Assembly: GCA_009889515.1 (NCBI GenBank)
Contig: WUQR01000139.1
Location: 558,001 to 622,000 of the forward strand
Length of the DNA stretch: 64,000 nucleotides
Source: Nitrososphaerota archaeon
GTDB lineage: Archaea; Thermoproteota; Nitrososphaeria_A; Caldarchaeales; Calditenuaceae
Direction: 5' to 3'
Shown: piece by piece, positions 12,411-61,791 of the stretch
How positions within the stretch are numbered: the first letter of the stretch is position 1
How the letters are laid out: every line of letters starts with the position of its first letter
The notes under the pieces: generated by a model
Told to the model about the DNA's origin: nothing
The model's input: the letters and a program-made list of their open reading frames with translations, nothing else
Database searches by the model: none
Position numbers and translations under genes: made by a program

Positions 12411-12450
12411 CCATCTACTCGTAGGTTTGTTTTAAGAGTGTGAGTGCAAG

Positions 12451-13146
12451 CTGGCCACTCCCAAATACATAGTTCTTCTCGCAGACTCCGCGGTCGAGTT
12501 TATCCCTCGAGAGATCTGGAGCCACCCGGCTGTGGCCTCCTATTGTCGAAGGAGGGGAAAGAGCCCTGCGAGGACTCTACTAGACTCCTCATACCATCAT
12601 ACGGCGATGAGAGGTCTTCCAGGGAGAGAAAGGAGGGGACGGCCCGACATACTCCACTTCACTATCCTAGAGGTTCTCGGCTCACCGCTCAACAAGGCTG
12701 AGAGGCTGGAGGTATACATTCACACCCAGCAAGGCCACATGATCTGGGTGAACCCCAAGGTTAGACTCCCGAGAAATTATGACCGCTTCAAAAGTCTTTT
12801 TGAGAAGCTCCTGGCCGAGAAAGTGATCGAGTCTGATGCAGGTGAGGTTCTGCTCCGCGTATTGGACTCGGACCTCAAGAGTTGGGTGAGGGGCTTAGGG
12901 GCTGGGAGCGTGGTCCTCCTCTCAGAGACCGGAGTTCGTGTGGAGATGAGGGTGCTGGAAGAGCTCTCTAAGAGTCCTAAGCCAACTGTCTTTGTAGTAG
13001 GATGTTTCCCCCACGGAGACTTTTCTCCAGAGATAAGATCGATCGCCCATAGGGAGGTCAGGCTCTCTGAGCACACGCTGGATGCATGGGTCGCCGCTTC
13101 TAGGATTCTATGTCTGCTGGAGCTGGTGGAGGCAGGTAACAGATAG
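12451..13146 (+). CDS. nep1: 16S rRNA pseudouridine N1-methyltransferase Nep1/Emg1, non-canonical start
   Basis: Nep1 is a SPOUT methyltransferase that methylates a pseudouridine in the small-subunit rRNA and helps ribosome assembly. The sequence has YIVLLADSAVEFIP at the N-terminus, the RGRPDILHF motif, the IYIHT strand, NPKVRLPRNYDRF and VGCFPHGDF near the knot. The frame opens after TAA at 12433 and has no ATG, GTG or TTG until a GTG at 12532, which would remove the conserved first strand. CTG at 12451 is chosen: GTGA at 12440-12443 sits seven bases before it. A one-base error in the CCC at 12460-12462 with a GTG start at 12444 is the other explanation. Confidence 0.88.
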   Translation: MATPKYIVLLADSAVEFIPREIWSHPAVASYCRRRGKSPARTLLDSSYHHTAMRGLPGRERRGRPDILHFTILEVLGSPLNKAERLEVYIHTQQGHMIWVNPKVRLPRNYDRFKSLFEKLLAEKVIESDAGEVLLRVLDSDLKSWVRGLGAGSVVLLSETGVRVEMRVLEELSKSPKPTVFVVGCFPHGDFSPEIRSIAHREVRLSEHTLDAWVAASRILCLLELVEAGNR

Positions 13147-13241
13147 GAGTAGGCGGGGGATTTGGGCGAGACAGCCCTTGTGCTGCCTTGAGGGGTGATA
13201 GTCTTTAAATGCTGGCTTTTGTATGTTTTTTCAGATATTTT

Positions 13242-13664
13242 ATGTCCGCGCTTGCTTCGAGAAAGTTTGGTGAGGAGTTCGCCTCAGTGCTTGAGAGAGT
13301 TGTGACTGTTTTAATGGCGAATGGGAGAAGGGTTACAGGGAGGGTTGCGGCATATAATCCTACAGACTACAGCCTATGGCTAGTAGACGCCACGACGGAT
13401 GATGGTAAGCCTGTCTCAAGGATTTTCATCTCGGGCCGCAGCGTCTCTACGATCGAGGTGGTGGAGGCTGGCCCCGACCTAACCTCACTCTTCGAAAGGA
13501 TAAACGCCCTTTTCCCGAACATGGCACGGTACATACGGGAGGCCGGGGTGATAGTTGTGATGGATAGGATTAGGGTGACTAAGGACGGTGTTATTGAGGG
13601 ATCGGGACCGGCAGCCGAGAGGATTCAGAGGATCTGGGAGGAGTGGAAGCGCGAGACAGGATGA
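13242..13664 (+). CDS. Sm-like (Lsm) RNA-binding protein with C-terminal extension
   Basis: The 140-residue protein has an N-terminal Sm fold: VTVLMANGRRVTGRVAAYNP (Sm1) followed by SLWLVDATTDDG and, after a short insertion, IFISGRSVSTIEVVE (Sm2-like). The second half, about 65 residues, is an extra alpha/beta domain resembling the longer archaeal SmAP3 type. Sm proteins form rings that bind U-rich RNA. The ATG at 13242 is chosen over an upstream in-frame ATG at 13209, because the extra residues are hydrophobic and lie before the conserved fold. It is about 95 bases after nep1, another ribosome/RNA gene. Confidence 0.85.
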   Translation: MSALASRKFGEEFASVLERVVTVLMANGRRVTGRVAAYNPTDYSLWLVDATTDDGKPVSRIFISGRSVSTIEVVEAGPDLTSLFERINALFPNMARYIREAGVIVVMDRIRVTKDGVIEGSGPAAERIQRIWEEWKRETG

Positions 13665-13672
13665 GCCATTCT

Positions 13673-14419
13673 TTATGCCTCAAGCCTAGCGATGCTCCTG
13701 CTCGAGACGGTTATTAGCTCGCTTACCCCAACCCCCTCTAATCCGAGCGAACAAAGCTTTGAGAGAGCCTCTACACCCCTCTGGGCTGCATAATAGTCCG
13801 GCATAGAATTTCCAATCTCAATCAGCATGCCCATGTTTTCAAGGCCTCTCTGCCCCGCCATAACCATCATTATCCCCGCAGCACCTACAATCTGTCCACC
13901 ATAAACCTCCCCTCCCACGAGCCCCATGTACTTCTCGAGGTAGGCTTTGCTGGTTGAGGAGCAGTATATCCTCCGTCTCTGCGCTACGTCCTCCTTCCCA
14001 CCCAAGCCGCCGAGTGTGAAGACGCGCCTAACACCGTGTTTGGCGGCTATATCTATTATCTTTCCACACAGTTCGTGCTGACCGTAGCTGCTTGAGGGCT
14101 GGGAGGTGCCGTACACTATCAGCGTGGGTGAAGGGTCTTCAACGGCGTATATGTCGAGAAAGTGTGGCAGGAGTTTTCCCTCTGATATGAATCCATAAGA
14201 GGGGAAATGGGGCGAGTAGACCCTGCAAAGCTTTACAGGCTTTACCTTCCCCAAAATGTAGGCTACACTGATTTTCGAAACAAGACCAATACCAGGAAGA
14301 CCCTCAATTAGGGATGCGTCTTCGAGATAGAAGTCTTCCATCCCCTCCTCATAGACAACTATAGACTCGTTGACCGGCAATACCGGAATAACAGTTCTAC
14401 CTTTAGTCTTATAAACCAT
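13673..14419 (-). CDS. PAC2-family protein (proteasome-assembly-chaperone-like)
   Basis: A 248-residue PAC2-family protein. Diagnostic segments are LIEGLPGIGLVSKISVAYIL near the N-terminus and TLGGLGGKEDV in the middle. Eukaryotic PAC2 helps assemble the 20S proteasome; archaeal members are not well characterised. The frame is open further upstream through the end of cysteine synthase, but the ATG at 14419, three bases after that gene's stop, gives the conserved N-terminus. A second PAC2 paralogue is at 50901-51722. Confidence 0.85.
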   Translation of the reverse strand: MVYKTKGRTVIPVLPVNESIVVYEEGMEDFYLEDASLIEGLPGIGLVSKISVAYILGKVKPVKLCRVYSPHFPSYGFISEGKLLPHFLDIYAVEDPSPTLIVYGTSQPSSSYGQHELCGKIIDIAAKHGVRRVFTLGGLGGKEDVAQRRRIYCSSTSKAYLEKYMGLVGGEVYGGQIVGAAGIMMVMAGQRGLENMGMLIEIGNSMPDYYAAQRGVEALSKLCSLGLEGVGVSELITVSSRSIARLEA

Positions 14420-14421
14420 TC

Positions 14422-15339
14422 TCAGCCCAGCAGCAGGTTTACATACCTGGCAGCGCCGTCGGGGATCAGAGTTACGACAACAGAGCCCGGATTCTCTAGT
14501 GCAACTCGGAGCGCGGCTGCCACGTTTGCTCCCCCCGACAGCCCCGCCAGAACACCCGCACGACATGCTAGGAGCTTAGAATGCTGGTAAGCCTCTTCAG
14601 TCGAGATCTGTATCAGGCTATCCGCGAAGGATGGATCGTATATCTTCGGCTTTATCGAGCTCTCCATGTGCTTGAGGCCCTCAATCCCGTGGAGCGGGCC
14701 GTCGGGCTGCACCTCAATGATCTTTATCCTCTTGTTATATTCGCGTAGACGTTGGCCAGCCCCCATCAGGGTTCCCGAAGTCCCTACGCCTGCCACGAAG
14801 TGGGTTACCCTGCCCCGCGTCTGGCGTATAATCTCAGGCCCGGTTGTCTCATAGTGGGCCCTGACGTTGGAGGGGTTATCATACTGGTTTGAATAGTAGT
14901 ATTTCTTGGGGTCGGATTCTGCCAGCCTCCTCGCCTCCCTTATGGCGCCGTCTATCCCCTCAAGCGGGTCTGTGTAGACTATCTCCGCGCCCAGTATCCG
15001 GAGCAGTCCTATCTTCTCTCGACTGATGTTTTCTGGGACGACTATCTTCGTCTTTAGACCGAAGCAGGCGGCCATCAGGGATAGGCTTACAGCCATGTTT
15101 CCGGATGAAGCGTCAAGGATTGTCATATTTGGTGTTACCAGCCCCTGAGCTATAGCGTCTCTGACGATGTATAGGGCGGGTCTATCTTTGACAGAGCCAC
15201 TAGGGTTGAAAAACTCTAACTTAGCAAGGACCCTTGACCCATTCTTGATCGAGAGTGGCTCTGTAAGGTCTACTATCGGAGTGTTTCCAACTGCATCCGC
15301 GACGGTTTGGAGAACGCCTCTGCGCAGGACGCGATACAC
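14422..15339 (-). CDS. PLP-dependent cysteine synthase (CysK/CysM family)
   Basis: A 305-residue fold-type II pyridoxal-phosphate enzyme that replaces the acetyl or phospho group of an activated serine with sulfide. The PLP lysine is K51 in NPSGSVKDRPA; DASSGNMAVSL binds the substrate carboxylate, and GVGTSGTLMGAG binds the cofactor phosphate. It lacks the extra N-terminal domain of Aeropyrum O-phosphoserine sulfhydrylase, so the acceptor (O-acetylserine, O-phosphoserine, or homocysteine as in CBS) is open. The start is GTG. It is followed after two bases by PAC2. Confidence 0.9.
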   Translation of the reverse strand: MYRVLRRGVLQTVADAVGNTPIVDLTEPLSIKNGSRVLAKLEFFNPSGSVKDRPALYIVRDAIAQGLVTPNMTILDASSGNMAVSLSLMAACFGLKTKIVVPENISREKIGLLRILGAEIVYTDPLEGIDGAIREARRLAESDPKKYYYSNQYDNPSNVRAHYETTGPEIIRQTRGRVTHFVAGVGTSGTLMGAGQRLREYNKRIKIIEVQPDGPLHGIEGLKHMESSIKPKIYDPSFADSLIQISTEEAYQHSKLLACRAGVLAGLSGGANVAAALRVALENPGSVVVTLIPDGAARYVNLLLG

Positions 15340-15424
15340 AATAAATTAGGGCACCTCGAAAACCCATGACCTAGCGTCCTATTTAGCTGTTAGTCTCCTT
15401 CACCAAAAAAGAGACTCATAGTAG

Positions 15425-16153
15425 TCAGAGGAGCTTCATTTCTGAGAGGAGTTCCTCGAAATCCTCACCCGAATATGTCTCCTTATACCGCCTTAGGGTC
15501 TGCCTCTCCACCCAGCCCAGACCGAGGTCCCGCCTCACCTTCTCAAGCTCTTTTGAGCTGATGTAGTTTATGAATGAGGTCAGGTTTTTTGGACGGCTTG
15601 AAAATCCGGCTGAGCCGAAATCTATAATGACAGGCCCACCCTGCGTGACTATCACATGCTTGCTTGCGTCGCTCAGCTCTCTATGGTCTATCCGAGCCCT
15701 GTCGAGCCTGTGGCACTGCATCGCAACTTCCAATAGTGTGTGCCTGGCGGCACTGCTGGGTGGGTTTGAGTGGAGTAGCCACTTGGTCAGGTCTACACCC
15801 TCGACTAGGCTCATGACTAAGACTGGATCTCTGTGCCCTAAGAGCTTGGGGCCAACACCCACCCTGTTAGCCTGTTCAAGCATATACGCCTCACGAAAGG
15901 TTGACTTAACGGCATAGTCGAGTCTCCTCACCTTAAGAGCCACCCTCACCATACCTCTAAACCCGACCAAGACAATATTTCTGAACCCTTTACCGATCAG
16001 TCTCAGTCTCTCAGGGTTTTCCAGCTCCAGGGCCTCAACACCAAGCTCTTCGAGCGCTCCCAACACTAGCGCTGCGTAGTCGGGGTCTGGAGATGGGTAG
16101 GAGAGCTGTAGCAAGAGGTGGTGATTTCTTCTCAGTTCTTCGATCTTTAGCAT
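15425..16153 (-). CDS. RIO-like predicted Ser/Thr protein kinase (COG2112 type)
   Basis: A 242-residue small kinase-like protein. A glycine loop GKGFRNIV (54-61), K74 in VALKVRR and E88 in FREAYMLE fit the N-lobe. DHRELSDASKHVIV (156-169) and IIDFGSA (176-182) fit the catalytic and metal loops. The HRD aspartate position is glutamate (HREL), which from memory is usual for this archaeal group and should not be read as a dead site. The start overlaps the end of the CCA enzyme gene by seven bases, so the two are translated together; a link to tRNA biology is inference. Confidence 0.8.
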   Translation of the reverse strand: MLKIEELRRNHHLLLQLSYPSPDPDYAALVLGALEELGVEALELENPERLRLIGKGFRNIVLVGFRGMVRVALKVRRLDYAVKSTFREAYMLEQANRVGVGPKLLGHRDPVLVMSLVEGVDLTKWLLHSNPPSSAARHTLLEVAMQCHRLDRARIDHRELSDASKHVIVTQGGPVIIDFGSAGFSSRPKNLTSFINYISSKELEKVRRDLGLGWVERQTLRRYKETYSGEDFEELLSEMKLL

Positions 16154-17556
16154 TTCTTCGCGAAGTGTCTGAGAGGTGTAGCTACACCGTCGAGGAAGTT
16201 TTTCAGAAACACTCTAAAATCCTCGCTATGTCTAATTCTGTCGATTAGGCCGCTTCTACTGGTCAGTATCTCAGCCTCCCTCAAACTGTCTGCCAACTCG
16301 CGCGATATGGCTACCTCCCCTCTCCTAATCCACTCCCTCAATAGTTCATCGGCGTTGACGTTTTTCCTCCTGAAGAGGGCGTAAAGTCTCTCACCATCTA
16401 CCCACGGTCCCGCAACCCTCTCCTCCCTGCTGAGAGTCTTCCTCACAAAGTCTATTGCGTTGTCAAGCCAGACGGGTGGTCCCATCCGCAGCTCGAGTGG
16501 TGGAAGAGAGAGGCTCGAGAGCTCGAAGAGTAGAAGAACCTCCTCGCCCGACTGGGCGGCCGCTGCCCTGTAGACTTGAAACCCCTCCTTCACCAGCCGC
16601 CTCGAAACCCCGTTAAGGGTGTGCTTGATCTCCCCCCAAAGTATGTCAGGAGGCCGCTCCTCAACTCGGAAGATGATTCCGAGGAGCTCGTGGCTGTCGC
16701 GCCAGTCCCCCTCATATGGGGGTTTGAGGGCTTCGGGCATGAAGTATTGGATGCTTGGCTCTCTCAGGAAGAGCTTGGACGCCAGAATTAGCTCTGCGAG
16801 CTTTGTCTTGCTCACGGCTGCTGCTACGTTTCGGGCGGGGTCTACTGGGTCAGGGAATATAAGGGCGGCATTGGGGAAGAGCCTGAGCGCGTCTTCACGC
16901 CTGACTCTACCGGTCAAGTCGACGAAAGCCGGTATTCGCCATTCCGCGGCTTTCTTCAACAACTCGACGAATCCGCCATGACTAATGACTAGGAGCTCTG
17001 AGAGATATCCGCTGAAGCCCTCAACCCTGATCTCCGCCCCGTAAAGTCCACACCCCATCAAGAAGCCCTTGAAGAGACGTATGTCGCGTCTGAGCTGGGG
17101 GGTTATTCGCGACCTTACAAACTCTGTGTGGTAGTGGGTTCTGTCGACGGCACTAATCCAGCGGCCAGGCTCGGTCTTGAAACATCCGACGATGTTGACG
17201 CGGATACCCTCAACCATGCCCTCAACATATGGATGGCTGGCGTATCTGAGCCAGTGCCTTCCGCCGAGCGCCTCAATAACCCTGCGCCCCAGCTCCAGAA
17301 TAGTTGACTCCAGCCTCTCCCTACCCGCACTGGGTGTGAAGTGGATAAAGACGTCAACCTCCTCCCTCCCCTTGACCCACGTGTCCTTTGCCACCGACCC
17401 TTCTATGGAGACATCAACCACCCCTTCCCGTCCCAAGAACTCCTGCCTACAGGCTGAGAGGAGCTTGGCCGCCAGCTCAGAGACGCGGCTCCTCTCCGGC
17501 TCAGTGGGCTCTACCAGCTCCGCCGCCTTGGCTAAAACCTCCTGTAGCCTTGTCAA
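16147..17556 (-). CDS. cca: CCA-adding tRNA nucleotidyltransferase (class I, archaeal)
   Basis: This enzyme adds or repairs the 3' CCA of tRNAs; none of the three tRNA genes in this window encodes CCA, so it is required. The 469-residue protein has the class I nucleotidyltransferase motif GSVAKDTW (53-60) and EEVDVFIHF with carboxylates E66 and D68, matching the two metal-binding residues of the archaeal enzyme. The downstream helical and tail domains give the usual archaeal length. It is upstream of, and overlaps, the RIO-like kinase gene. Confidence 0.94.
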   Translation of the reverse strand: MTRLQEVLAKAAELVEPTEPERSRVSELAAKLLSACRQEFLGREGVVDVSIEGSVAKDTWVKGREEVDVFIHFTPSAGRERLESTILELGRRVIEALGGRHWLRYASHPYVEGMVEGIRVNIVGCFKTEPGRWISAVDRTHYHTEFVRSRITPQLRRDIRLFKGFLMGCGLYGAEIRVEGFSGYLSELLVISHGGFVELLKKAAEWRIPAFVDLTGRVRREDALRLFPNAALIFPDPVDPARNVAAAVSKTKLAELILASKLFLREPSIQYFMPEALKPPYEGDWRDSHELLGIIFRVEERPPDILWGEIKHTLNGVSRRLVKEGFQVYRAAAAQSGEEVLLLFELSSLSLPPLELRMGPPVWLDNAIDFVRKTLSREERVAGPWVDGERLYALFRRKNVNADELLREWIRRGEVAISRELADSLREAEILTSRSGLIDRIRHSEDFRVFLKNFLDGVATPLRHFAKKC

Positions 17557-17609
17557 CTCTGTGGTGAAAAACGTTAGACGACTATTTTTAGTCGCCGCGA
17601 GGCTCGTGT

Positions 17610-19461: not shown

Positions 19462-19528
19462 ACATTTTTTAAGAATCAGGCAGCATAATTATCTTTCGAG
19501 TATAGTGTTCTCTGCGAATTGACCAGTA

Positions 19529-19560
19529 TTTCATGAAAGCTTAAATCCGAGTTTCATGAT
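19529..19560. promoter_or_regulatory. Palindromic candidate operator between kdgA and the GfcR-like gene
   Basis: TTTCATGAAA at 19529-19538 is a perfect ten-base palindrome. TTTCATGATG at 19552-19561 repeats its first eight bases. Between them lies CTTAAAT (19540-19546), a good TATA box 30 bases before the regulator's TTG start. The repeats therefore flank the core promoter and suit autoregulation. They also lie upstream of kdgA on the other strand. That the GfcR-like protein binds here is inference. Confidence 0.5.
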
Positions 19561-19574
19561 GAGTCGGTCGGTGG

Positions 19575-20294: not shown

Positions 20295-20300
20295 GAATTT

Positions 20301-22180: not shown

Positions 22181-22265
22181 CTGTCCACTACCCCTGTGGG
22201 TCTCCCTACTTAAATTAATCGTGGCAGAGAATCTTTTTAAGCCTCCCTAGTGTGCCATTATTGAA

Positions 22266-22688: not shown

Positions 22689-22713
22689 TAAACTGTGGTG
22701 GGAGGAGCAGAGG

Positions 22714-27630: not shown

Positions 27631-27809
27631 ATGCAACCTAAATAAAATTCAGTATATGCGTGTTGTGGTCAATTTTATGCAAATAAGCGCGCCCTTCTTT
27701 TCGTAGATTTTTCATAATCCATTTAATGCCTCTTCAAAACGCATTGGCAGCTCTAAAAATGGTTGCTCTATACTTCAGACATATGTGTGGGGGTAAGAGC
27801 TTGAATTGT

Positions 27810-27882
27810 AGCGGGGGGTGGATTTGAACCACCGATCTCCGGGTTATGAGCCCGGCGGGATTCCTGGCTACCCTACCCCGCT
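27810..27882 (-). tRNA. Initiator tRNA-Met (CAT)
   Basis: The minus strand folds as a full cloverleaf of 73 bases: acceptor AGCGGGG paired with CCCCGCT, D arm GGGT...TCCC, anticodon stem CCGGG/CCCGG with loop CTCATAA, T arm GGTGG TTCAAAT CCACC. The CAT anticodon, A1:U72 pair and G-C-rich anticodon stem identify the archaeal initiator rather than elongator Met or Ile2. No intron and no encoded CCA. Confidence 0.95.
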
Positions 27883-30188: not shown

Positions 30189-30935
30189 ATGGCGCTGGTG
30201 GCTGTTGTTATCCCGACTTATAATGAGGCTGCGAACATAGGGAGGGTGCTCGAATCACTGGAGTCCATGTCCAGTTTTGTGGACTTTGACATTCATGTGT
30301 TGGTTGTTGATGATGGCAGTGTGGATGGCACGGTTGAGATCGTGGAGGATTTTGGGAGAAGGTTTGGGAATGTCTCCGTCATGAGGCGGCCTGGCAAACT
30401 GGGTCTGGGCTCCGCATATGTGGATGGCTTTAGATGGTGCCTGAAGAATCTAGGCGACTTCGTGGCAGCTGTCGAGATGGATGCTGATGGGAGCCATGAT
30501 CCGGGCCAGCTTCCCAGGCTAGTTGAGCCGATACTTGAGGGTAGGGCCCAAGTTGTGGTGGGTTCAAGATATATTCGTGGTGGAGGGTGGAGGGGTGGAA
30601 GTGTTTGGAGAAAGCTGATCAGCCGGGGTGCAAACCTGCTAGTCAGGCTTACTGTAGGGTTAAAGGTGAAGGACGCCACGAGCGGCTACAGAGCCATCTC
30701 CAGAAAAGTGTTGGAAGAGGCCTTCACAGAGGATAGGAAATACGAGTCAGGGTACATCTTTCAGGTGGAGACCCTCCACCAATACCACCTCTTGGGCTAC
30801 AAGATCATCGAGGCTCCAATAGACTTCTACGAGAGGGCTGGGGGGAAGAGCAAGCTGGGGGTAGGGGAGCTTGCAAGCTTCGCTTGGTGGTGTTTTAGGC
30901 AGCTGGGGAAAAGAATCTTGAGAAGAACTACCTGA
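30189..30935 (+). CDS. Dolichol-phosphate mannosyltransferase-like glycosyltransferase (GT2)
   Basis: A 248-residue family 2 glycosyltransferase that moves a sugar from GDP/UDP-sugar to dolichol phosphate on the cytoplasmic side of the membrane. It shows VVIPTYNEAANIG at the N-terminus, VVDDGSVDGT (39-48), the metal-binding DAD (98-100) in VEMDADGSHDP, and KDATSGYRAISR, all typical of the DPM1 type without membrane helices. It would supply lipid-linked sugar for protein N-glycosylation or lipids. The 3' end overlaps the facing small membrane gene by eight bases. Confidence 0.9.
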   Translation: MALVAVVIPTYNEAANIGRVLESLESMSSFVDFDIHVLVVDDGSVDGTVEIVEDFGRRFGNVSVMRRPGKLGLGSAYVDGFRWCLKNLGDFVAAVEMDADGSHDPGQLPRLVEPILEGRAQVVVGSRYIRGGGWRGGSVWRKLISRGANLLVRLTVGLKVKDATSGYRAISRKVLEEAFTEDRKYESGYIFQVETLHQYHLLGYKIIEAPIDFYERAGGKSKLGVGELASFAWWCFRQLGKRILRRTT

Positions 30936-31218
30936 TAGCTCCTATAATTAGGCCTAAGAGCAATCCCACTGCTATAGCGGGATACCTTGCGAGTAGTGAT
31001 AGAAACTCCAATATCAGGCTCGCCAAGGGGCCAAAGAGTGATGCAACTGCTGTGGGAGATATGAGGCCTGCGATTGTGAATCCGAAAAAGAACAGTATTA
31101 TTAACGCGAATATGATGAGTAGCAGGCCCTTAACTGCCCTAGCAACGCCGAGCCCTATGAGCGCCCCGGCCAGCAGCAGAACTACGTTAACCAGCAGCCC
31201 CTCTACACTAATGTCCAT
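30928..31218 (-). CDS. Small multi-helix membrane protein
   Basis: A 96-residue, highly hydrophobic protein with three likely membrane helices (about 8-25, 29-52 and 72-94). The family is not recognised. It faces the DPM1-like gene and overlaps its last eight bases. Composition alone supports an integral membrane protein. Confidence 0.6.
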   Translation of the reverse strand: MDISVEGLLVNVVLLLAGALIGLGVARAVKGLLLIIFALIILFFFGFTIAGLISPTAVASLFGPLASLILEFLSLLARYPAIAVGLLLGLIIGAIR

Positions 31219-31327
31219 GGCTACATATCGTCTATGCGAGAGATACTTATGCTTTACACATGACTTCGAGGCTGATACACTTCTAAAGCAGTGGGAATAG
31301 GGTTTTTTACCAGCCTAAGCATCTAGA

Positions 31328-43377: not shown

Positions 43378-45057
43378 TTAACCGGTATGAGTCCCTTCAC
43401 TCTTCTGCAGTACCTCTTTTTCACTTACTTTTCTGAATAGCGGTTCTGGGCGTGCAATCTTCGTGTTAGGCTTGATTATGATGTCCCCGAGTTGTCTCCA
43501 GCTACCGCTCAAGTCGAAGTCGATGCCGATCATGTTTCTGAGATGGCGTGCGGTATCTGGTGTGAAGATCTCGAGGAATATAGCTAGGGAGGCCACTATC
43601 TGTGAGGCCGTGTAGAGTGTTGTGGCGGCCTTTTCGGGGGCTGTTTTCTGAAGCTTCCAAGGCTCTTTAAGGTTGAGGTAGCTGTTTGCCTCCTTAACTA
43701 ATGTGAGCACCTCTATCAGTGATTGTCTCTCCCGCACTTCGCCCATCAGCTCGTCGATCCTGTCTCTTGTCTCGGTGATTTTCGCAAGGATTCTCTTGTC
43801 ATCGTCGTCTAGTTCGTGTGGTTCTGGGACTCTGCCGCCGAAGTATTGGTAGATGAATGTCAGAACTCGGTGTATGTAGTTTCCTATATCGTCGTTTAGG
43901 TCGCTGTTTACTGTGGAGATAAAGTCCTGCCACTTAAAGTTGGTGTCACTGGTCTCGGGCCTTATCTTGACTAGGTAGTATCTCCAGTAGTCGCTTGGCA
44001 GTATCTCTAGCGCCTCATCAAGCCACACTCCAATCCTCTTACTCTTCGAGAACTTCTGGCCCTCGAAGGTGAGGTACTCTGTCGCCGAGACATTCCATGG
44101 TAGAACATAGCCGTCCCCGTGCGCCAGGAGTAGGGCGGGGAGGATTATTGTGTGGAAAGGTATGTTATCCTTTCCTATGAAAAAGACGGTGCGGGTCTGC
44201 TTGTCAAGCCAGTATCTCTCCCATAGGCTCGGGTCTCCCCGAGATATTCCAAGCTCTACTGTTGCGGAGATGTAGCCTAGAACGGCCTCGAACCATACGT
44301 AGATTGTTTTTCCCTCCGCGCCTGGGAAGGGTGCCGGGATTCCCCACTTATTGTCGCGAGTTACGGCCCTTGGTCGCAGTCCTTCCTCTATCCAGCTTAA
44401 GCTGAAGGCCTTGACACGCTCATGCATGTGTTGGTTTTGGGCGAGCCAGTTTCTTATGGGCTCGGCTAGTCGAGGTAGGTCGAGGAACCAGTGTCTGGTG
44501 GTTTTGACTACTGGTGTTGAGCCGCAGATTGCGCATACAGGGTTTTTTAGGTCTAGCGGGTCTAGGACTCTTCCGCAGGCCTCGCACTGGTCTCCCCTGG
44601 CATAGTTGTATCCGCAGTGGGGGCAGGTCCCTAGTACGAACCTGTCCGGCAGAAATCTTCTACAGTTCTCGCAGTAGAGCTGGTCGATTTCCCTCTCGAA
44701 GATGTATCCGTTCTCATATATCCGCTTGAAGAAGTCTTGGCAGAAGGATATGTGTATCGGGTTATGCGTCCTTGTGTAGTTGTCGAACGATAGGCTGAAT
44801 CTCCTAAAAATCTCCACGACCTTTGCGTGGAACTTGTCGGTCAGGGTCTTAGGGTCTACACCCTGCCTAGCGGCCTCAACCTCAATCGGCGTACCATGCT
44901 CGTCTGAGCCACTGACAAAGACAATGTCTTCACCCCTTAGCCTCAGATACCTAGCATAGACGTCGGCTGATAGCTCAGACCCTATGAGATTACCTATGTG
45001 TGGGATCCCGTGGATATATGGCCACGCGCCCCCGACAACCCACCTGCCGAGCTCTAC
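43378..45057 (-). CDS. metG: Methionyl-tRNA synthetase, non-canonical start
   Basis: Class I synthetase for methionine. Reading the frame up from the first GTG (44817) recovers the missing N-terminus: GRWVVGGAWPYIHGIPHIGN, with HIGN as the HIGH motif, then YARYLRLRGEDIVFVSGSD and DEHGTPIEVEA. Two zinc ribbons (CENC, CPHC, CEAC, CAIC), the KFSKSKR signature and a helical anticodon domain follow. The frame opens after TGA at 45058-45060 and contains no ATG, GTG or TTG before the conserved strand. GGTGA at 45058-45062 lies six bases before CTC at 45049-45051. Deleting one G at 45039-45041 would instead give a GTG start. Total about 550 residues, normal for archaeal MetG without the C-terminal tRNA-binding domain. 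Confidence 0.93.
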   Translation of the reverse strand, partial: VELGRWVVGGAWPYIHGIPHIGNLIGSELSADVYARYLRLRGEDIVFVSGSDEHGTPIEVEAARQGVDPKTLTDKFHAKVVEIFRRFSLSFDNYTRTHNPIHISFCQDFFKRIYENGYIFEREIDQLYCENCRRFLPDRFVLGTCPHCGYNYARGDQCEACGRVLDPLDLKNPVCAICGSTPVVKTTRHWFLDLPRLAEPIRNWLAQNQHMHERVKAFSLSWIEEGLRPRAVTRDNKWGIPAPFPGAEGKTIYVWFEAVLGYISATVELGISRGDPSLWERYWLDKQTRTVFFIGKDNIPFHTIILPALLLAHGDGYVLPWNVSATEYLTFEGQKFSKSKRIGVWLDEALEILPSDYWRYYLVKIRPETSDTNFKWQDFISTVNSDLNDDIGNYIHRVLTFIYQYFGGRVPEPHELDDDDKRILAKITETRDRIDELMGEVRERQSLIEVLTLVKEANSYLNLKEPWKLQKTAPEKAATTLYTASQIVASLAIFLEIFTPDTARHLRNMIGIDFDLSGSWRQLGDIIIKPNTKIARPEPLFRKVSEKEVLQKSEGTHTG

Positions 45058-45142
45058 TCACCTACCCTATGATGCACACCTGCCCTCCCTCTATTAAATC
45101 TAATCCACAGCCTAGTAAAGTGGCATGAACTCGTCCCGCCGC

Positions 45143-47169: not shown

Positions 47170-47175
47170 GTGCGT

Positions 47176-51862: not shown

Positions 51863-51878
51863 GGATCCCGGGCTCTGG

Positions 51879-51898: not shown

Positions 51899-51959
51899 CC
51901 CCGGGGACGCCGGTTCGAATCCGGCCCGGGCTACTTTTCTTAGGCTTACGATTTATTAC

Positions 51960-53078: not shown

Positions 53079-53115
53079 TCGGGCTATACGGTATAGTTGA
53101 AGGGTTTATATAGGG

Positions 53116-53604
53116 GTGTCCAAGGATTTACGCGAAATGTTGAAAAAAGTTGATGAAGTCGACCTTAAACTCATAAACATACTCAGTCGAAATGGGCGTG
53201 CCTCCTATAGGGAGCTGGCGAAGGCGCTGGGCGTCTCGGTGGCAACGGTTGCATACCGTGTTTCACGGCTGCAGAGGAACGGTCTGATCAAGGGGTTCGC
53301 CGCCCTGATAGACTACGAGAAATTCGGCTACGATATCACTGCTGTAATAGAGCTTGTGATTAGGGAGGGGAGGCTTCTCGAGGTCCAGAGGGAGCTGGCT
53401 AAGGAGCCGAACGTTGTCGCGGTCTATGATGTTACAGGCGAGGTAGACTCGATAATCATAGCTAGGTTTAGAGATCGGCAGGAGCTTAGCCAGTTTGTGA
53501 AGAAGGTCTTAAGGATGCCCTACGTTGAGAGAACGTCAACGCATATTGTCTTGGAGGTTGTGAAGGAGGACTTCTTCTCCCCCCAACTAGTGGAAAGCGT
53601 TTAG
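53116..53604 (+). CDS. Lrp/AsnC-family transcription regulator
   Basis: A 162-residue regulator with an N-terminal winged helix (DLKLINILSRNGRASYRELA, then VSVATVAYRVSRLQRNGLI) and a C-terminal RAM domain (VIELVIREGRLLEVQREL, NVVAVYDVTGEVDSIIIARF). Lrp-type proteins often sense amino acids. It ends four bases inside the end of the glutamate synthase amidotransferase gene, convergent to it, and could regulate nitrogen metabolism; that link is inference. Confidence 0.93.
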   Translation: MSKDLREMLKKVDEVDLKLINILSRNGRASYRELAKALGVSVATVAYRVSRLQRNGLIKGFAALIDYEKFGYDITAVIELVIREGRLLEVQRELAKEPNVVAVYDVTGEVDSIIIARFRDRQELSQFVKKVLRMPYVERTSTHIVLEVVKEDFFSPQLVESV

Positions 53605-55679
53605 CCCTCTTCAGGTTCTTCTACTCTTGTGCGAGTATCCGGCTTCGGGTATATTATAGTAAAATAGTTTTCCTCGACAACTCTGTTAACCTCTTCTCTA
53701 AGGTTGAAGATTTTGCCGAACTCTTCGAAATGGGGTTGGAGAACTGCTAGATCGCTGCTACTTAGTCTTCGATACTCTACCACAAGCTCTTTCCAGTATT
53801 TGTTTACGTATAGTTTGGAGACGTGCTTAACAGCCTCTGGCGACAGTATTTCTCTGAGCGTGATGAGTGAGAAGTCTTTGAGCGACTCTATTGCCTCGTA
53901 TTCTTTTAGGGATATCATCTCTTCTAATAATAGCCCGCGTAAATACTGCATAACGTCGGCTCTGGGAGGGTTGAGACCTATCTTTCTTGGACTGACCTTA
54001 CCCCTAATGTATATTGTCCCACCAACCATGCCGCTCGCCACGCAGTCTCCAACAATCTCCACATCGGTATCAAGGTAGTTTAGGCCCAAGACAACAATCA
54101 CTCCTCCGGCCATATACTCGCCGAGATAGTCGTCGACCCTGCCGCCGATCATCAATACGGGACGCCTATCCCTATACTCTCTCATCTGTATACCACACCT
54201 GTTGCCCGCGTTGCCCTTGACATAGATGGCTCCTCCTTGAAAGGCTTGGGCAAGAACATCCCTAGCATCGCCGTGAACTATTACGCGCCCTCCCGTCATG
54301 ACATCCCCAACATCGTCTTGGACGTTTCCGAAAACCTCGATCTCGAGGCTCTTGTTCAGGTTCGCGAGGCAGTTCCCGGGTGTGCCGAAGATTCTGAGCT
54401 TTACGGGATAGTCCAGCCCAACGCCGATATACCTCTGCCCTCTAACGTTGATGATGTCTACTTGCCTAGCCCCGGCCTTTATCCTCTCCAAAATGGCTTG
54501 GTTTAGCATCCTATAATTCATGTAAGATGCGTCAATGCAATCCCTAGTGGTGGGAGGGTGCTTGAGCTGTGTGGACAGGGTATAAAATCTTTCATGAAGA
54601 GTCCTCCCCGGATAAATTACCCCCTTCTTCAATGAGGCGAGGAAGTAGTCTCCAGGCTCTATGGTCCAGACGTTGGCTTCTGGGCTGATCGTCCTTATCT
54701 GTGCTTCTTCGCTGGCGGCGTAGATGTAGTTTTCATCCTCGCCGACTATGATTGGCCTAAATTTGAAGCGGTCAGCGAACGCCACCATGTATACGTCGTC
54801 TCCATCGCAGAACCCCGCTATGACGCTGAAAGGCCCATCCAGTCGCGCTCCACGCCACCTATAGAACAGCTTAATGCTTTCTTGGTCTGGTAAACCTCTG
54901 TTAAACCTGTTGCACAGTATCCTTACAGCTTCCTGCACGTTGAGGCGTTGGATGCTGGTTAGATAGTCGAGGAGGTAGGCGATTACTTCACTATCTGTGC
55001 CTACAAAGCTCTCATAGCCAAGCGACCAGAGAAGCTCCATGTTAGAGCCGAAAGAGCTTATGTCGCCATTATGGACAATAGCCCAGTCACCGCTGGAGAA
55101 CGGGTGAGACCATACCGGCAGCCTTCCCGGAGAGTTCGTGGGCTGCCTCGTGTGGGCAATCCATAGATCAGCATCTAAACCCCGGTTCTCCATCTGGTAG
55201 AGGCTATAGACATCGGCCGGGTATCCAACACCCTTATACACGTCAACAAACCTGCCCCAGGAATATATTCGCCCCTTGAATCCATCCCTCCAGAGCACCT
55301 CATTAACCTCTTGGACCGCGCTCCAGAGGCTTTCGTAGCTGGCATCAACATACGCGGTATAGGATGTCAGGGCCCCATTCATGGGAGCGTACTCGGGTGA
55401 GGGCTGAGATAAGACCTCTACATGTCCATTTTCCTCGAGCATGTCGAATATCTGGTAAGCGACTGTATCGGATACCGCGAAGGCCTTTACTCTCCAACCC
55501 CGCGCTGAGTCCAGCCTAATCCTTGCGAATCCAGCCCCCATTTTGCTGCCCCTATACCTTACACATTCGATGGCGTTGAGGGCATAGGCAGACGGTATAG
55601 TCCTTGAGTGAGCCTTCCGCAGTACACCGAAGATACCGCACCCAGATTTAACTTGGGAGACGTGGTGGCTACTCTCCAG
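53601..55679 (-). CDS. Glutamate synthase glutaminase plus GXGXG domain, non-canonical start
   Basis: The protein joins a class II glutamine amidotransferase with the GXGXG beta-helix of glutamate synthase. The catalytic cysteine is encoded at 55638-55640 (GCGIFGVLRKAHSRTIPSAY follows), 99 bases before the first ATG (55541), so the true start is upstream. No ATG, GTG or TTG exists in frame between the TGA at 55686-55688 and the cysteine. CTG at 55677-55679, six bases after GGTGA (55686-55690), gives a 13-residue leader before Cys, which could be cleaved as in other GltB proteins. GDVMTGGRVIVHGDARD and MIGGRVDDYLGEYMAGGVIVVL are GXGXG repeats. The FMN subunit is encoded just upstream. Confidence 0.85.
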   Translation of the reverse strand: MESSHHVSQVKSGCGIFGVLRKAHSRTIPSAYALNAIECVRYRGSKMGAGFARIRLDSARGWRVKAFAVSDTVAYQIFDMLEENGHVEVLSQPSPEYAPMNGALTSYTAYVDASYESLWSAVQEVNEVLWRDGFKGRIYSWGRFVDVYKGVGYPADVYSLYQMENRGLDADLWIAHTRQPTNSPGRLPVWSHPFSSGDWAIVHNGDISSFGSNMELLWSLGYESFVGTDSEVIAYLLDYLTSIQRLNVQEAVRILCNRFNRGLPDQESIKLFYRWRGARLDGPFSVIAGFCDGDDVYMVAFADRFKFRPIIVGEDENYIYAASEEAQIRTISPEANVWTIEPGDYFLASLKKGVIYPGRTLHERFYTLSTQLKHPPTTRDCIDASYMNYRMLNQAILERIKAGARQVDIINVRGQRYIGVGLDYPVKLRIFGTPGNCLANLNKSLEIEVFGNVQDDVGDVMTGGRVIVHGDARDVLAQAFQGGAIYVKGNAGNRCGIQMREYRDRRPVLMIGGRVDDYLGEYMAGGVIVVLGLNYLDTDVEIVGDCVASGMVGGTIYIRGKVSPRKIGLNPPRADVMQYLRGLLLEEMISLKEYEAIESLKDFSLITLREILSPEAVKHVSKLYVNKYWKELVVEYRRLSSSDLAVLQPHFEEFGKIFNLREEVNRVVEENYFTIIYPKPDTRTRVEEPEEG

Positions 55680-56688
55680 CCGGCTTCACCCCCAGTCTCT
55701 CACACATGTGGTAGGGCAGATCGATGGCTCTAAACAATTCCCGGTTTCCAACAATCGAGCTCTGAAACGAGCTGACTCCTGCAGCGCCCATTAAGAGCTT
55801 TATCTCCCTCTGCATGCCTATGAGAAGGTTTTCAATCCTCTCCGACAATTGGTGAGCTGGGATGTCCGGCTTATAATCAACCCCAATGAGCCATGCATCT
55901 CTAATTATGCAGGCGTCCGCGCCAAGTCCGCCGAGCTTGAAAATGTCGGAGCTGGAACGAATCCTCTTCGACGCCGCTATTAGTCCCACATAGTACCGGG
56001 CAGGGAAGCCATTGATCGGCAACTTCTTTAACGTGTGGTCGGCCTCAGAGAGGGACACCTCAAGCGGCTCCTCACCACCTAAGTCCTCATCGATTATTAC
56101 TGTCTGAAACCCGGCAAATAGAACCTCTCGATATAATGAGCGGTTAGCTGAGGAAGGGACCCTGGCAATCAGTTGTGTGTCAAGCCCTAAACTTTTCACG
56201 GCACGCCTAACCTTAGCCAGCTCCTCTACACTCTCTATGCTAAAGACCACTGGGCCGCTTTGCAGGCCTTGAAGATCACCCTCGGAGGCCTCGAGAAAAA
56301 CATGCCTTCTGACGTCCACGTGGAACTGTAGGCTGGGTGGGTTCTCTAAATGGATACCCACACCCATTCTAAAGCCCGCCAGCATCACAACGTCCAAGTG
56401 CTTGGCATCTACACTTGTTAAGCCACCTATTATGATGGGCATTGTAAGCCTGAGGTCGCCGCCGAGAAGGTAGACCTCTGTCTCAGTGGGTTCACGGTAC
56501 GGGTCGATACTCGGCCTCGTGACTTGGGCGCCATCCGAAACTATATGGTCGAGTATAAACAGGGGCCTCTCTATGAGAGGAGGGTTTGTCGCCCCCATGC
56601 TAGCTATTGGCGGCTCGCCGGCCGTCTTACCCTCAACGCCAGCGAGTAGGCGCAGATTCGATACAATGTCTCGCCTCCAGACACTCAA
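55669..56688 (-). CDS. Degenerate paralogue of the glutamate synthase FMN domain
   Basis: A 339-residue protein with the outline of the glutamate synthase FMN-binding barrel: [53 protein letters not shown] and an ending ([21 protein letters not shown]) matching the C-terminus of GltS. It lacks the KIGQGAKPG active-site segment and the cysteine motif for the 3Fe-4S cluster. It is probably a structural or regulatory subunit, located between the true FMN subunit and the glutaminase, overlapping both. Confidence 0.75.
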
Positions 56689-58007: not shown

Positions 58008-58128
58008 TCACGCTGCACCCTGTCTGGTTGCCATTTACAAATCTGGTTAGAATTTAAACCTTTTGATTAGAGACGCTTATAAGTATTAACCTTTAAAATC
58101 CAGCGAGCTCTCGATATTTAGACTCAAT

Positions 58129-58944
58129 CTATCCGGCCCTCTGCCTCGCACTCTTTTGGCTCCTGCGGCCCTCTGCTTCTTCAGGCGCTGTCCAGAGCGG
58201 CATATGTGCAAGCTTCACAATCCTCACATAAAAGTATCTCATCTCGCCTATTGAGTCCACGAATGACGTCACTTCACGACCGTTCTCCGTGACGTAGCGT
58301 AGGAATCCGGCTTTAGGATCCTCCTTAGTCTCCACGTAGAGGAAGACGGGGAGGGCGTTAGCGTCATAGTAGTCAAAGACCGGTGCTATAACTCCGAATA
58401 TCGAGTGGCCGTTGTGCCTGAAGCTCCAGATTGGCGGGGATGAAGAGTCCTCGGAGAGTATCAGCAGTGTTCTGACTAGGACCGTCATATCTTTAGCCTT
58501 TGTTAGCACGGGCCTGAAGTCTCGCTGTATGGTCTTGTTCTTGAGTGATCTGAGGAGGAAGTCAGGAGGTGACTCAATCTCCATTATTGCGCCGTATACG
58601 TATCTGGGGTCGTCTCCCGAGTTGGTGAAGATGCACTCCTCTTGGCCTATGCTTCGGTAGGCTAGGAAGGCTTTCGGCTCGACATCGGGGGGCAGTCTTG
58701 TATAGCAGAAGAGTGGAAGGTTACCCCTCCAGTACGGTATCAGGAAAAGGCTGCCTAGGATCTTCTCCCCGCCTACTGGGAAGTACCAGAACAGCCCGTC
58801 AGGCTCTCCCCGGTTTAGGACGAGCCTTGCTAGGTTCTGGAGGTCTACAACCTCTACGGCTACAGGGGGGCGAACCCTCTTCGGACCCACCCTCATCGTC
58901 AAAACCCAATTACCCACCTCACTATTTAAGCGGTTATTCTCCAA
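58129..58944 (-). CDS. Hypothetical protein
   Basis: I do not recognise this 271-residue protein. It appears all-beta to alpha/beta with repeated aromatic strands (GLFWYFPVGGEKILGSLFLIP, LPLFCYTRLPPD, HSIFGVIAPVFDYYDANALP in parts), no membrane segment and a basic C-terminal tail (GRRSQKSARQRAG). Two internal regions (about 50-115 and 160-235) look alike in outline, each with a strand pair then PxFxYxxxxxD/E-P, suggesting a duplication. It stands alone between divergent neighbours. Confidence 0.65.
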   Translation of the reverse strand: MENNRLNSEVGNWVLTMRVGPKRVRPPVAVEVVDLQNLARLVLNRGEPDGLFWYFPVGGEKILGSLFLIPYWRGNLPLFCYTRLPPDVEPKAFLAYRSIGQEECIFTNSGDDPRYVYGAIMEIESPPDFLLRSLKNKTIQRDFRPVLTKAKDMTVLVRTLLILSEDSSSPPIWSFRHNGHSIFGVIAPVFDYYDANALPVFLYVETKEDPKAGFLRYVTENGREVTSFVDSIGEMRYFYVRIVKLAHMPLWTAPEEAEGRRSQKSARQRAG

Positions 58945-59088
58945 TTACAGGCTGAGCGGAGGCCTCCGCTCAAAATATAAGGCCGACCCTCCACAAGAAG
59001 AGACACTACATAGATATTCATTTAGACTGCTCCAGATGATTCATACAAAACCTTGATTAAACGCTCAAGACAACGCTAGTCTGGGTAG

Positions 59089-59649
59089 GTGGATTTAGAT
59101 CTGAGCATCAAGAATGTCCGTAGAGCAGTCCTAATAGGGAGATTCCAGCCCTTCCACCTAGGCCACCTATCAGCTGTCAAAGAGATACTGGGAGGGTTTG
59201 ATGAAGCCATAATTGCGATAGGAAGCAGCCAGTTCAGCCACACTTTTGACAACCCCTTCACCGCGGGTGAGAGGATAGAGATGATTAGGCTGGCACTGGC
59301 CGAGGATGGCCAAGACCTCTCAAGAATCATCACGGTAACCATCCCTGATATTGGGGAACACCCCCTCTGGGTTGCGAGGCTAAAGTCCATGTGCCCAAGG
59401 TTCGACGTCGTCTACACCAACAACCCCTTCGTGAGGCTCCTACTGGAGGAGCAGAACATCAAGACTAGGGAGGCGCAACTATACGCGAGAGAGGAGCTAA
59501 ACGCCACCAAGATCCGGACCCTCATGGCGGAGGGTGGCGACTGGAAGAAGTACGTCCCCAAGAGTGTAGGAGACTACATCGAGATGATAGGCGGGGTTAA
59601 CAGGGTTAGGGTCGCGAAGGGGTCGGCAACCAGCGCCCTCCTAAGGTGA
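59089..59649 (+). CDS. nadM: Nicotinamide-nucleotide adenylyltransferase (archaeal NadM)
   Basis: NadM joins NMN and ATP to make NAD. The 186-residue protein has the nucleotidyltransferase motif GRFQPFHLGHLSA (17-29), IGSSQFSHTFDNPFTAGERIE in parts, and the C-terminal NATKIRTLMAEG, the ISxTxxR-like signature. Length matches archaeal NadM (about 170-190). GTG start. The last bases overlap the next gene (GTGA), so the two are translated together. Confidence 0.93.
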   Translation: MDLDLSIKNVRRAVLIGRFQPFHLGHLSAVKEILGGFDEAIIAIGSSQFSHTFDNPFTAGERIEMIRLALAEDGQDLSRIITVTIPDIGEHPLWVARLKSMCPRFDVVYTNNPFVRLLLEEQNIKTREAQLYAREELNATKIRTLMAEGGDWKKYVPKSVGDYIEMIGGVNRVRVAKGSATSALLR

Positions 59650-60056
59650 CCTGGTTGGATGTGGTTAAAGTGAAGCTTGTAGGCCTTGAGCCCCTATCCA
59701 GCATCATAGCATTCGAGCTCTCCGAGTTCCTATCAGGCGTTGGAGGGTTCGCTTTGCCGAGAGAGAGGGACGTGGTGATAGACCTGTCAGGCTCAAGCAA
59801 CTACTCCCTAAACATTGCAACACTTGTAAGCGAGTTGAAGGTGATTTTGGACCGGCTTGGAATGGCCGGAGACTACGTCATTGAAGTGGACAGGGACGCG
59901 GTAACGGTAAGGGCGCTTTCAAGTGAAAAGGTTGCAGAAATCCTCGAACAAGTCAAGAAGAACGCGCTGAGGCCTGAGATATGCCCCCACTGCGGTTTCA
60001 CAACACCATACCCCGAGGTCATGCGCGAACATATAAAAATCCACTATCTGCTCTAA
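59646..60056 (+). CDS. Hypothetical protein with C2H2-type zinc finger
   Basis: A 136-residue protein whose last 30 residues form a classical zinc finger: ICPHCGFTTPYPEVMREHIKIHYLL with two cysteines and two histidines in the usual C-x2-C-x12-H-x4-H-like spacing. The first 110 residues are alpha/beta and of no family I recognise. It overlaps the end of nadM by four bases and is followed by sdhA after about 25 bases. Confidence 0.7.
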   Translation: MTWLDVVKVKLVGLEPLSSIIAFELSEFLSGVGGFALPRERDVVIDLSGSSNYSLNIATLVSELKVILDRLGMAGDYVIEVDRDAVTVRALSSEKVAEILEQVKKNALRPEICPHCGFTTPYPEVMREHIKIHYLL

Positions 60057-60081
60057 CTATATTGGTTGAAGGTGGTGCCTT

Positions 60082-61791
60082 CTGGAGAAAATAACGTGTG
60101 ATGTGGTTGTTATGGGCTCGGGGCTGGCTGGGCTAAGAGCTGCCATCGAAGCTGCTAGGACTGGTAAAGGCCGCCTCTCGATTGCTGTGGTAACGAAGAC
60201 GCAGCCAATGAGGTCCCACAGCGTCTCGGCTGAGGGTGGAACTGCAGCCGTGCTTTACCCCGAGGAGGGCGACTCTCTTGAGTCGCATATGTGGGATACT
60301 GTGAAGGGGAGTGATTTCCTTGCTGACCAGGACGTGGTTGAGAGGTTTGTAAGCCTTGCACCTCGCGAGATCATCCAGCTTGAGCACTGGGGAATGCCTT
60401 GGGCTAGGAGGAAGGATGGGAAGATAGCCCAGAGGTATTTCGGTGGACAGAGCTATCCGCGGGCATGCTACGCCGAGGATAAGGTTGGCTTCTACGAGAT
60501 GAGCACACTTTACGACACATGTCTAAGATACGACGAGATAGTCTTCTACGACGAGTGGGTCGTCACCAAGATACTCCGGAATAATGGCCGCTTCGCTGGA
60601 GTCGTGGCTCTGAGTCTGAGAAATGGCGAACTCGCAGTCTTCAACGCGAAAGCCGGAATCCTCGCAACTGGGGGCGCTGGACGGATCTACAGCTTCGCGA
60701 CCTTCGGGCACAGCTCCACACCCGACGGTTACGCGATAGCCTATCGCGCCGGAATCCCGTTGAGGGATATGGAGTTCGTACAGTTTCACCCGACTGGACT
60801 TGTACCTAGTGGGATTCTCATAACTGAGGCGGCCCGCGGCGAGGGTGGGATACTCAGAAACAAGGACGGGGAGAGGTTTATGGAGAGATACGCACCCAAG
60901 GCCAAAGATTTAGCGCCGAGGGACATCGTGTCTCGGGCCATGATAACCGAGATACGCGAGGGGAGGGGGCTCAAGACCGAGGATGGCGAGGACTACCTCC
61001 TCCTAGACCTTACAGTCATAGACCCCGAAGTGATAAAGAAAAGACTTACAAGCATACGTGAAATATGCCTACGGAACGCTGGAATCGACCCAATAAACGA
61101 GCCCATACCTGTCAGGCCAGTGGCACATTACTACATGGGCGGAGTAGACGCCAACATTGACGGCGCAACCGAGTTGCCTGGCCTCTGGGCTGCTGGAGAG
61201 GTCGCATGCACCTCGATGAACGGAGCTAACAGGCTGGGCTCAAACTCTACAAGCGAGTGCCTGGTCTGGGGGAGAATAACTGGCGAACAGGCAGCCATGT
61301 TTGCCCTAGCCCATCAAGCAGTAGAGCCACCAAAGAGCGAGGTAGACCAAGAAGAGAAGAGGATCTACGACAAGCTACTCGGCCCCGCACCGCGCGTCAA
61401 CCCGTACAATATCAAGAAGGAGATCCAAGCCCTGATGGAGAAACATTTTCACGTCTATAGAGAGGCGAGTAGTATGGAGGAGGGTCTTAGAAAGCTTAGG
61501 GCCTTGAAGCAGCAGGCGGAGCTTGGTGTAGAGGATAAGAGCAGATACTATAACACAAACCTCGTGAACGTGCTCGAGATAGACTACATGTTTGACGTCT
61601 GTGAGGTTATTGGTGCGGCGGCTATTCATAGGAGGGAGAGCAGAGGTGCCCACGCGAGGGTCGACTATCCAACGAGGGACGACCAGAACTGGCTCAACCA
61701 CATACTAGTATACAAGAGAGCTGATGGATTCGAGTTCGCCTACAAGGAAGTGGTAATCACGAAGTATAAGCCAGTCGAAAGGACCTACTAG
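60082..61791 (+). CDS. sdhA: Succinate dehydrogenase/fumarate reductase flavoprotein subunit, probable CTG start
   Basis: SdhA holds covalent FAD and oxidises succinate. DVVVMGSGLAGLRAAIEA is the dinucleotide fold, MRSHSVSAEGGTAA contains the FAD-linking histidine region, QFHPTGLVPSGILITEAARGEGG binds substrate, and GLWAAGEVACTSMNGANRLGSNS closes FAD. The N-terminal strand begins before the first GTG (60103), which would cut it. The frame opens after TGA at 60067 and has only CTG at 60082, five bases after GGTGGT (60071-60076). GTG 60103 remains the alternative. sdhB, sdhC and sdhD are not adjacent. Confidence 0.9.
   Translation: MEKITCDVVVMGSGLAGLRAAIEAARTGKGRLSIAVVTKTQPMRSHSVSAEGGTAAVLYPEEGDSLESHMWDTVKGSDFLADQDVVERFVSLAPREIIQLEHWGMPWARRKDGKIAQRYFGGQSYPRACYAEDKVGFYEMSTLYDTCLRYDEIVFYDEWVVTKILRNNGRFAGVVALSLRNGELAVFNAKAGILATGGAGRIYSFATFGHSSTPDGYAIAYRAGIPLRDMEFVQFHPTGLVPSGILITEAARGEGGILRNKDGERFMERYAPKAKDLAPRDIVSRAMITEIREGRGLKTEDGEDYLLLDLTVIDPEVIKKRLTSIREICLRNAGIDPINEPIPVRPVAHYYMGGVDANIDGATELPGLWAAGEVACTSMNGANRLGSNSTSECLVWGRITGEQAAMFALAHQAVEPPKSEVDQEEKRIYDKLLGPAPRVNPYNIKKEIQALMEKHFHVYREASSMEEGLRKLRALKQQAELGVEDKSRYYNTNLVNVLEIDYMFDVCEVIGAAAIHRRESRGAHARVDYPTRDDQNWLNHILVYKRADGFEFAYKEVVITKYKPVERTY

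Follow-up and report, generated by a model that had tools for sequence, protein, structure and literature searches.

How is a protein begun when its gene offers no ATG, GTG or TTG at the place where the conserved sequence starts? The question is raised by four genes on a 64,000-nucleotide stretch of archaeal DNA, here called the window (bases 558001-622000 of contig C139), from a member of Candidatus Calditenuaceae (Caldarchaeales, "Aigarchaeota") whose genome, G000, comprises 2.11 Mb in 154 contigs. In metG, encoding methionine--tRNA ligase (MetRS), in nep1, in sdhA and in a glutamate-synthase-like gene (gltS-like), direct reading of the open frame finds none of these three codons in the stretch from the in-frame stop to the conserved N-terminus, as an earlier note on this DNA had claimed, giving coordinates for all four genes that proved correct throughout. 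For comparison we used five further genomes of the same genus (G001-G005); other near relatives belong to Candidatus Caldarchaeum (L167, L168), which, like Candidatus Calditenuaceae, we take to be placed in Candidatus Caldarchaeales. We consider it likely that all four genes are translated from non-canonical starts placed by Shine-Dalgarno (SD) elements, and that the start of metG is a selected, poorly readable one that limits or regulates MetRS.

The probable start codon of metG

In the window, a GGTGA is followed after six nucleotides by CTC, and the next NTG of the metG frame is codon 80, past PHIGN. Our sample consisted of 37 Caldarchaeales copies, namely 30 loci plus those of G013, G016, G018, G020, G022, G028 and G025; outside it are G010 and G011, for which no full-length metG was obtained, and G012 and G015 of family f2, whose MetRS (L340, L341; FYITTAIPYVNAPPHIGHALEF) is of another kind than those read elsewhere in the order. 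One to three places ahead of a conserved Lys/Arg, all 37 copies have either CTC (18) or CTA (19), with CTC in all six members of the genus, and at this codon there is no CTG, CTT, TTG, GTG or ATG (0/37). The GGTGN element stands 6 nt from it in 31 copies, 5 nt in four and 4 nt in one, and one copy is without GGTG.

A codon-blind rule, which takes the rightmost GGTG in register, leads to CTC or CTA in 32 of the 37 copies and to NTG in none; the remaining five give GGA (2), ATC, GGG and, in one case, no GGTG in register. Between the in-frame stop and the core, 20 of the 30 loci have no NTG whatever. At 14 other columns of the metG alignment in which Leu occupies at least 90% of 30 rows, CTC and CTA make up 46.8% of the cells, with a maximum of 58.6% in a single column, a comparison that is circular in that the start column was anchored on a CTC/CTA at most four codons from the core; the other two readings avoid that step. 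The exchange between CTC and CTA is a transversion, yet the codons that a transition would produce, CTT and CTG, do not occur, and we infer, though not from a formal test, that the codon is under selection.

The same codons recur beyond the order. Among the best 80 of 585 related stretches, 34 were named Bathyarchaeota or Bathy-, and their codon two places before the Lys/Arg is CTC in 20, TTG in five, TTC in two, and TTA, GTT, GTG and ATG in one each; the remaining three have another codon there and a TTG nearby. In a family-level set of the phylum, which overlaps with these named Bathyarchaeota, CTC is found in families f14 (4/4 read), f34 and f38 and in one f5 genome and CTA in f42 and f47, while two f5 genomes carry TTA. 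The majority of the remaining families read carry ATG, GTG or TTG, as do most Thermoprotei loci. One further f5 genome (G137, L346) has TCG at the position, after GGGTGC.

In a MetRS tree of 106 rows, CTC/CTA occurs in three separate groups, a Caldarchaeales 'ALPY' type (16 rows), a Caldarchaeales 'AWPY' type (17 rows, three of them genomes repeated under a second name) and Bathyarchaeota (20 rows), and in one Thermoprotei row. The label changes nine times on the tree, with at least five changes forced by well-supported branches; as this is a quick FastTree reconstruction with long branches that meet, only the separation of clades was used. Since the ALPY and AWPY groups are separate, two distant MetRS genes within one order both begin with CTC or CTA. 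The two distantly related types are spread over the families of Caldarchaeales (L083-L112), which suggests gene replacement within the order. Because CTC/CTA is order-wide, extends to many Bathyarchaeota and never gives way to a G-ending codon within the order, it looks like a gene-specific device and not like sloppy initiation.

Several observations weigh against this reading. Ten of the 30 loci have an in-frame GTG four to nine codons before the core, one of them also an ATG, and in seven of the 20 Bathyarchaeota with CTC a GTG precedes it by two codons, so that a canonical start is possible in both sets; the f47 copy and the f5 copy with CTC likewise have an in-frame GTG ahead of the codon. 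The position itself is never NTG in Caldarchaeales, and its role as a start there is deduced from homologs elsewhere. Finally, the absence of CTT is not explained by a start that is merely weak.

Could the true start of metG lie elsewhere in the message? In the 37 upstream regions aligned on CTC/CTA, the AT fraction reaches 0.79-0.81 at -45 to -36, compared to 0.46 at -35 to -31, and this peak is a TATA-like box. With the usual archaeal spacing from TATA box to start, the metG leader would measure about 15-20 nt, leaving little room for a spliced first exon. That a canonical start resides in an upstream exon removed by mRNA splicing, an idea made plausible by the 17-19 nt interruption of cbf5 in the same genomes (see below), is for this reason very unlikely. 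Hardly more credible is a programmed frameshift, in which translation would begin at the out-of-frame GTG of GGTG and slip by +1 into the metG frame. Copies of the GGTGN-N6 form do have this GTG in the -1 frame, and trpE of these genomes shows such an arrangement; however, the -1 frame is shut at once in L089 (GTG AGC TAA), L090 (GTG AGA TAA) and L091 (GTG GTC TGA), and likewise in some copies from Bathyarchaeota, among them L223 and L229 (GTG CGT TAA), and by eye the metG leaders share no slippery codon. Beside the metG codon of L089 and L090 neither of the other frames is open: TAA closes -1, and the TAG within CTAGAG closes +1. Direct closure of the -1 frame applies to only three of the 31 N6 copies, frameshifting in the others being excluded by homology.

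The earlier note had judged random sequencing error a poor explanation for the four genes, and this judgement holds, as the odd codons recur in congeners and that of metG across the order. The assembly is fragmented into its 154 contigs, which would favour an error or strain-specific damage; metG, however, agrees in the five other species of the genus, in many other genera and in Bathyarchaeota, and the probability of this explanation is practically negligible.

An altered initiator anticodon was considered and rejected, as the tRNA that we take to be the initiator, from its A1 and from an anticodon stem with three G-C pairs, carries a normal CAU according to ARAGORN and the sequence. Among 44 tRNA matches, at least nine were left untyped by ARAGORN and two were given four-base anticodons, so that an unusual tRNA may be present. 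CTC mismatches the anticodon CAU at positions 1 and 3, and metG should therefore not be pooled with the CTG genes; the label near-cognate, applied by the earlier note to all four, fits nep1, gltS-like and sdhA and fails for metG. In the reading that we prefer, the CUG of these three genes would be read by the normal initiator tRNA at lower efficiency, as a codon one mismatch from AUG, while the CUC or CUA of metG keeps only the central U. As G-ending codons are absent from every copy read in the order, the MetRS start appears to be selected as nearly unreadable by the initiator. Synthesis of MetRS would then most likely be kept low and made dependent on the strictness of start-codon checking, so that the enzyme supplying Met-tRNAi would itself be controlled at translation. 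Work in the Sulfolobus system reports that aIF1 favours discrimination against non-canonical starts (PMC6237735).

Alternatively, the metG codon could be read in the P site by an elongator Leu-tRNA, with anticodon GAG for CUC and UAG for CUA, so that MetRS would be made without Met-tRNAi and would rise when Met-tRNAi is scarce. The exclusive occurrence of codons that the initiator should read badly speaks for this possibility, as does the presence of genes for both tRNAs. Yet TTC (Phe) occupies the position in two and GTT (Val) in one of the 34 Bathyarchaeota, CTT is never found though tRNA-Leu GAG should read it, and aIF2 selects the initiator tRNA, all of which makes decoding by Leu-tRNA unlikely. 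We assign a similarly low probability to its extension to Caldarchaeales and many Bathyarchaeota as a whole, in which MetRS would be produced from an initiator-unreadable start and boosted when initiator tRNA runs short. If it were true, MetRS would be the one protein that can be started without the initiator tRNA that MetRS itself supplies, and, together with the trpE leader described below, it would represent a style of control in which recoding at the extreme 5' end of the message adjusts how much aminoacyl-tRNA is supplied.

Probable CTG starts in sdhA, gltS-like and nep1

In the other three genes a CTG takes the place of the start codon. In sdhA it follows GGTGGT after five nucleotides, and the next NTG, codon 11, is a GTG within the conserved CDVVVMGSG strand; the six genus members have CTG in four cases and TTG in two. 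This alternation is the behaviour expected of a start codon. The earlier note had named relatives with a canonical start at the same place as evidence against its claim; such relatives exist for sdhA, but they read as start-codon exchange and not as error. No such exchange is seen at the gltS-like or nep1 position in the six genus members. The gltS-like CTG follows GGTGA after six nucleotides in all of them, with the next NTG at codon 48, and falls within the closing codons of the preceding gene, whose end is at 55669; the NCBIfam matches of the encoded protein (FwdC, GltB, GlmS, PurF) are all below cut-off. In nep1, CTG stands seven nucleotides after GTGA in the window and is present in five of the six members; an in-frame TAA lies five codons upstream, and, counted along the open frame, the next NTG comes at codon 32. 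Judged from these patterns, the CTG of the three genes looks like an SD-placed near-cognate start.

For nep1 and gltS-like there are points to the contrary. In nep1 the SD is poor, the G001 copy lacks CTG at the start place and the G002 copy has an in-frame GTG upstream of it; in G003 a GTG stands four codons ahead of the catalytic Cys of gltS-like. Furthermore, the overlap of the gltS-like start with the end of the preceding gene makes coupling to termination possible, and also reinitiation at another codon. Another proposal is that the true start is another non-canonical codon nearby (ATA in nep1; GTT or GTC before KSGC in gltS-like) and the CTG incidental. Such codons are indeed present, and nep1 of G001 lacks the CTG; however, the CTG lies at SD spacing, is conserved in gltS-like (6/6) and nep1 (5/6) and is exchanged with TTG in sdhA, leaving this proposal only a small chance of being right.

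Frequency of odd starts, and two further messages

Are such starts a general trait of the organism, as the earlier note had supposed from several near-cognate starts in 64 kb? A screen for the absence of an early NTG flagged 15 of 70 conserved open frames in the window. The four genes above are the clear cases, and inspection of the other 11 found a canonical start close by in most. Short frames such as 30899-31300 and 63456-63701 are likewise without early NTG but have no Pfam match; these two are probably not genes, the former being interrupted by stops in G001. Listing every open reading frame of the window with homology ahead of its first NTG proved too noisy, and non-overlapping gene sets were used instead.

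The wider region C139:298001-862000 (564 kb) has 413 genes with a conserved counterpart in G005 or G001, and at least seven of them lack a canonical start in G000; with four of the seven inside the window, the density seen there does not hold. This count stems from alignments of 49 of the 413 genes, judged by eye, together with the SD count, and is a lower bound, since a gene whose true start is closely followed by an NTG goes unnoticed by the filter; about six short frames with no NTG near their beginning, among them o57, o95, o1049, o1574, o1565 and o898, were excluded as probable shadows of other features. The three cases from outside the window are a cofD-like gene (ATC; C139:806262-807209, +), C139:533644-534495 (CTG, and TTG in G001) and C139:460186-460659 (CTG, and TTG in G005). 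At the start position of the cofD-like gene, 26 loci (L373-L398) show ATC 5, ATT 1, ACG 4, CTG 1, GTG 2, ATG 6 and TTG 6, with one not read; this variety of codons makes near-cognate starts seem tolerated in these genomes. Some of the odd-codon copies have an in-frame NTG further upstream. The count of CTG after GGTGA proposed in the earlier note, carried out on the 413 genes, yields an excess so slight (2/35 sites at spacing 6 and 4/36 at spacing 5, with NTG at spacing 6 in 14/35) that it weighs against the preferred reading and is by itself no proof of CTG starts.

Two more genes outside the window, trpE and cbf5, likewise have no canonical start, for other reasons. The TrpE frame (C139:417442-418824, +) appears to have no start of its own in G000. 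In 25 Caldarchaeales loci (L409-L451), found at E<=1e-40 in 25 of 41 genomes searched, a short leader in the -1 frame precedes it every time, with ATG (20) or TTG (5) as its possible start. Its last codon before TGG is CTT in 16 loci and GTT in nine, and a +1 slip at this place enters TrpE. Upstream, the TrpE frame has no NTG in 14 of the loci and a GTG in 11, once together with TTG, mostly within the GGTGG of the leader. It is possible that +1 frameshifting at the Trp codon provides hungry-codon control, but TGG follows from conserved Phe-Gly codons, and the Trp codon is not independent evidence for a frameshift; a TTT start placed by an SD-like element is a rival explanation.

In cbf5 (C139:666676-667485, -, and upstream; GGTLDP / AVSGLLPILLGNATK), an interruption of about 19 nt in G000 and of 17 nt in G005 and G001 looks like the small intron of archaeal cbf5 mRNAs, a family to which we presume it belongs.

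Table 1. Positions of the features discussed, in window coordinates.
Feature	Position	Strand	Basis
nep1 start codon CTG	12451..12453	+	CTG here in 5/6 genus members
nep1 partial SD GTGA	12440..12443	+	direct reading
nep1 (EMG1), rRNA pseudouridine methyltransferase	12451..13146	+	PF03587 E 2.1e-57; PRK04171-type NCBIfam matches below their cut-offs
gltS-like start codon CTG	55677..55679	-	CTG at GGTGA-N6 in 6/6 genus members
gltS-like SD GGTGA, within end of upstream gene	55686..55690	-	direct reading and genus comparison
Glutamate-synthase-like protein: N-terminal amidotransferase (CGIFG) and C-terminal GltB/FwdC-like part	53601..55679	-	
sdhA start codon CTG	60082..60084	+	CTG in 4, TTG in 2 of 6 genus members
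sdhA SD GGTGGT	60071..60076	+	direct reading
sdhA/frdA flavoprotein	60082..61791	+	NCBIfam PRK06069.1 and TIGR01812 above cut-off
metG start codon CTC	45049..45051	-	aligned codon CTC/CTA in 30/30 loci and 7 further
metG SD GGTGA; its TGA is the in-frame stop	45058..45062	-	GGTGN-N6-CTC/CTA in 31/37 Caldarchaeales copies
metG, methionine--tRNA ligase	43378..45051	-	NCBIfam PRK00133.1 and TIGR00398 above cut-off
metG TATA-like box (gatttaata)	45092..45100	-	37 upstream regions aligned on CTC/CTA
Initiator tRNA-Met, CAU anticodon, A1, GGG/CCC anticodon stem (initiator features presumed)	27808..27882	-	ARAGORN and sequence

Relation to known systems

Among the literature matches listed, which leave most subscription journals outside their coverage, there is no report of a CUC/CTC or CUA/CTA start of metG. 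The gene finder Prodigal takes only ATG, GTG and TTG as starts (PMC2848648), so that its prediction for such a MetRS would probably be truncated or begin at an incorrect codon, masking the unusual start. A deeply conserved start with two mismatches would offer a test of how strictly archaea check their start codons, and of whether natural proteins can be begun with any tRNA but that of normal initiation; it also makes the question of a balance between MetRS and initiator tRNA directly testable in vitro.

The trpE leader resembles the +1 site of prfB (release factor RF2), where NUU is followed by a slow codon, and many trpE copies have an SD-like GGTGG or GGGGG just upstream; it differs in having UGG (Trp) in place of UGA, in belonging to another gene and in being archaeal. 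A 2021 review of archaeal recoding reports only one programmed -1 case (PMC8211752), and a 2016 review a likely +1 shift in an archaeal virus (PMC5009743). The CUG of sdhA, nep1 and gltS-like, with its single mismatch to AUG and its SD placement, corresponds to near-cognate CUG starts in bacteria, where CUG is reported to account for 0.024% of initiation codons and to be 0.86% as productive as AUG (PMC11497404). Here, in contrast, CUG is kept in archaeal housekeeping genes.

Two further parallels concern metG. Mammalian cells can initiate at CUG with Leu-tRNA, and metG would likewise have a Leu codon as its start, an analogy that applies to the elongator-tRNA model only. In Escherichia coli, infC and pcnB begin at AUU, and metG would share with them a conserved rare start, in a gene for RNA metabolism or translation, that limits expression; as in infC, the rare start is kept across species in one gene, in metG in 37 of 37 Caldarchaeales copies. 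AUU, however, has one mismatch and is policed by IF3, whereas the CUC and CUA of metG have two, and the gene is archaeal.

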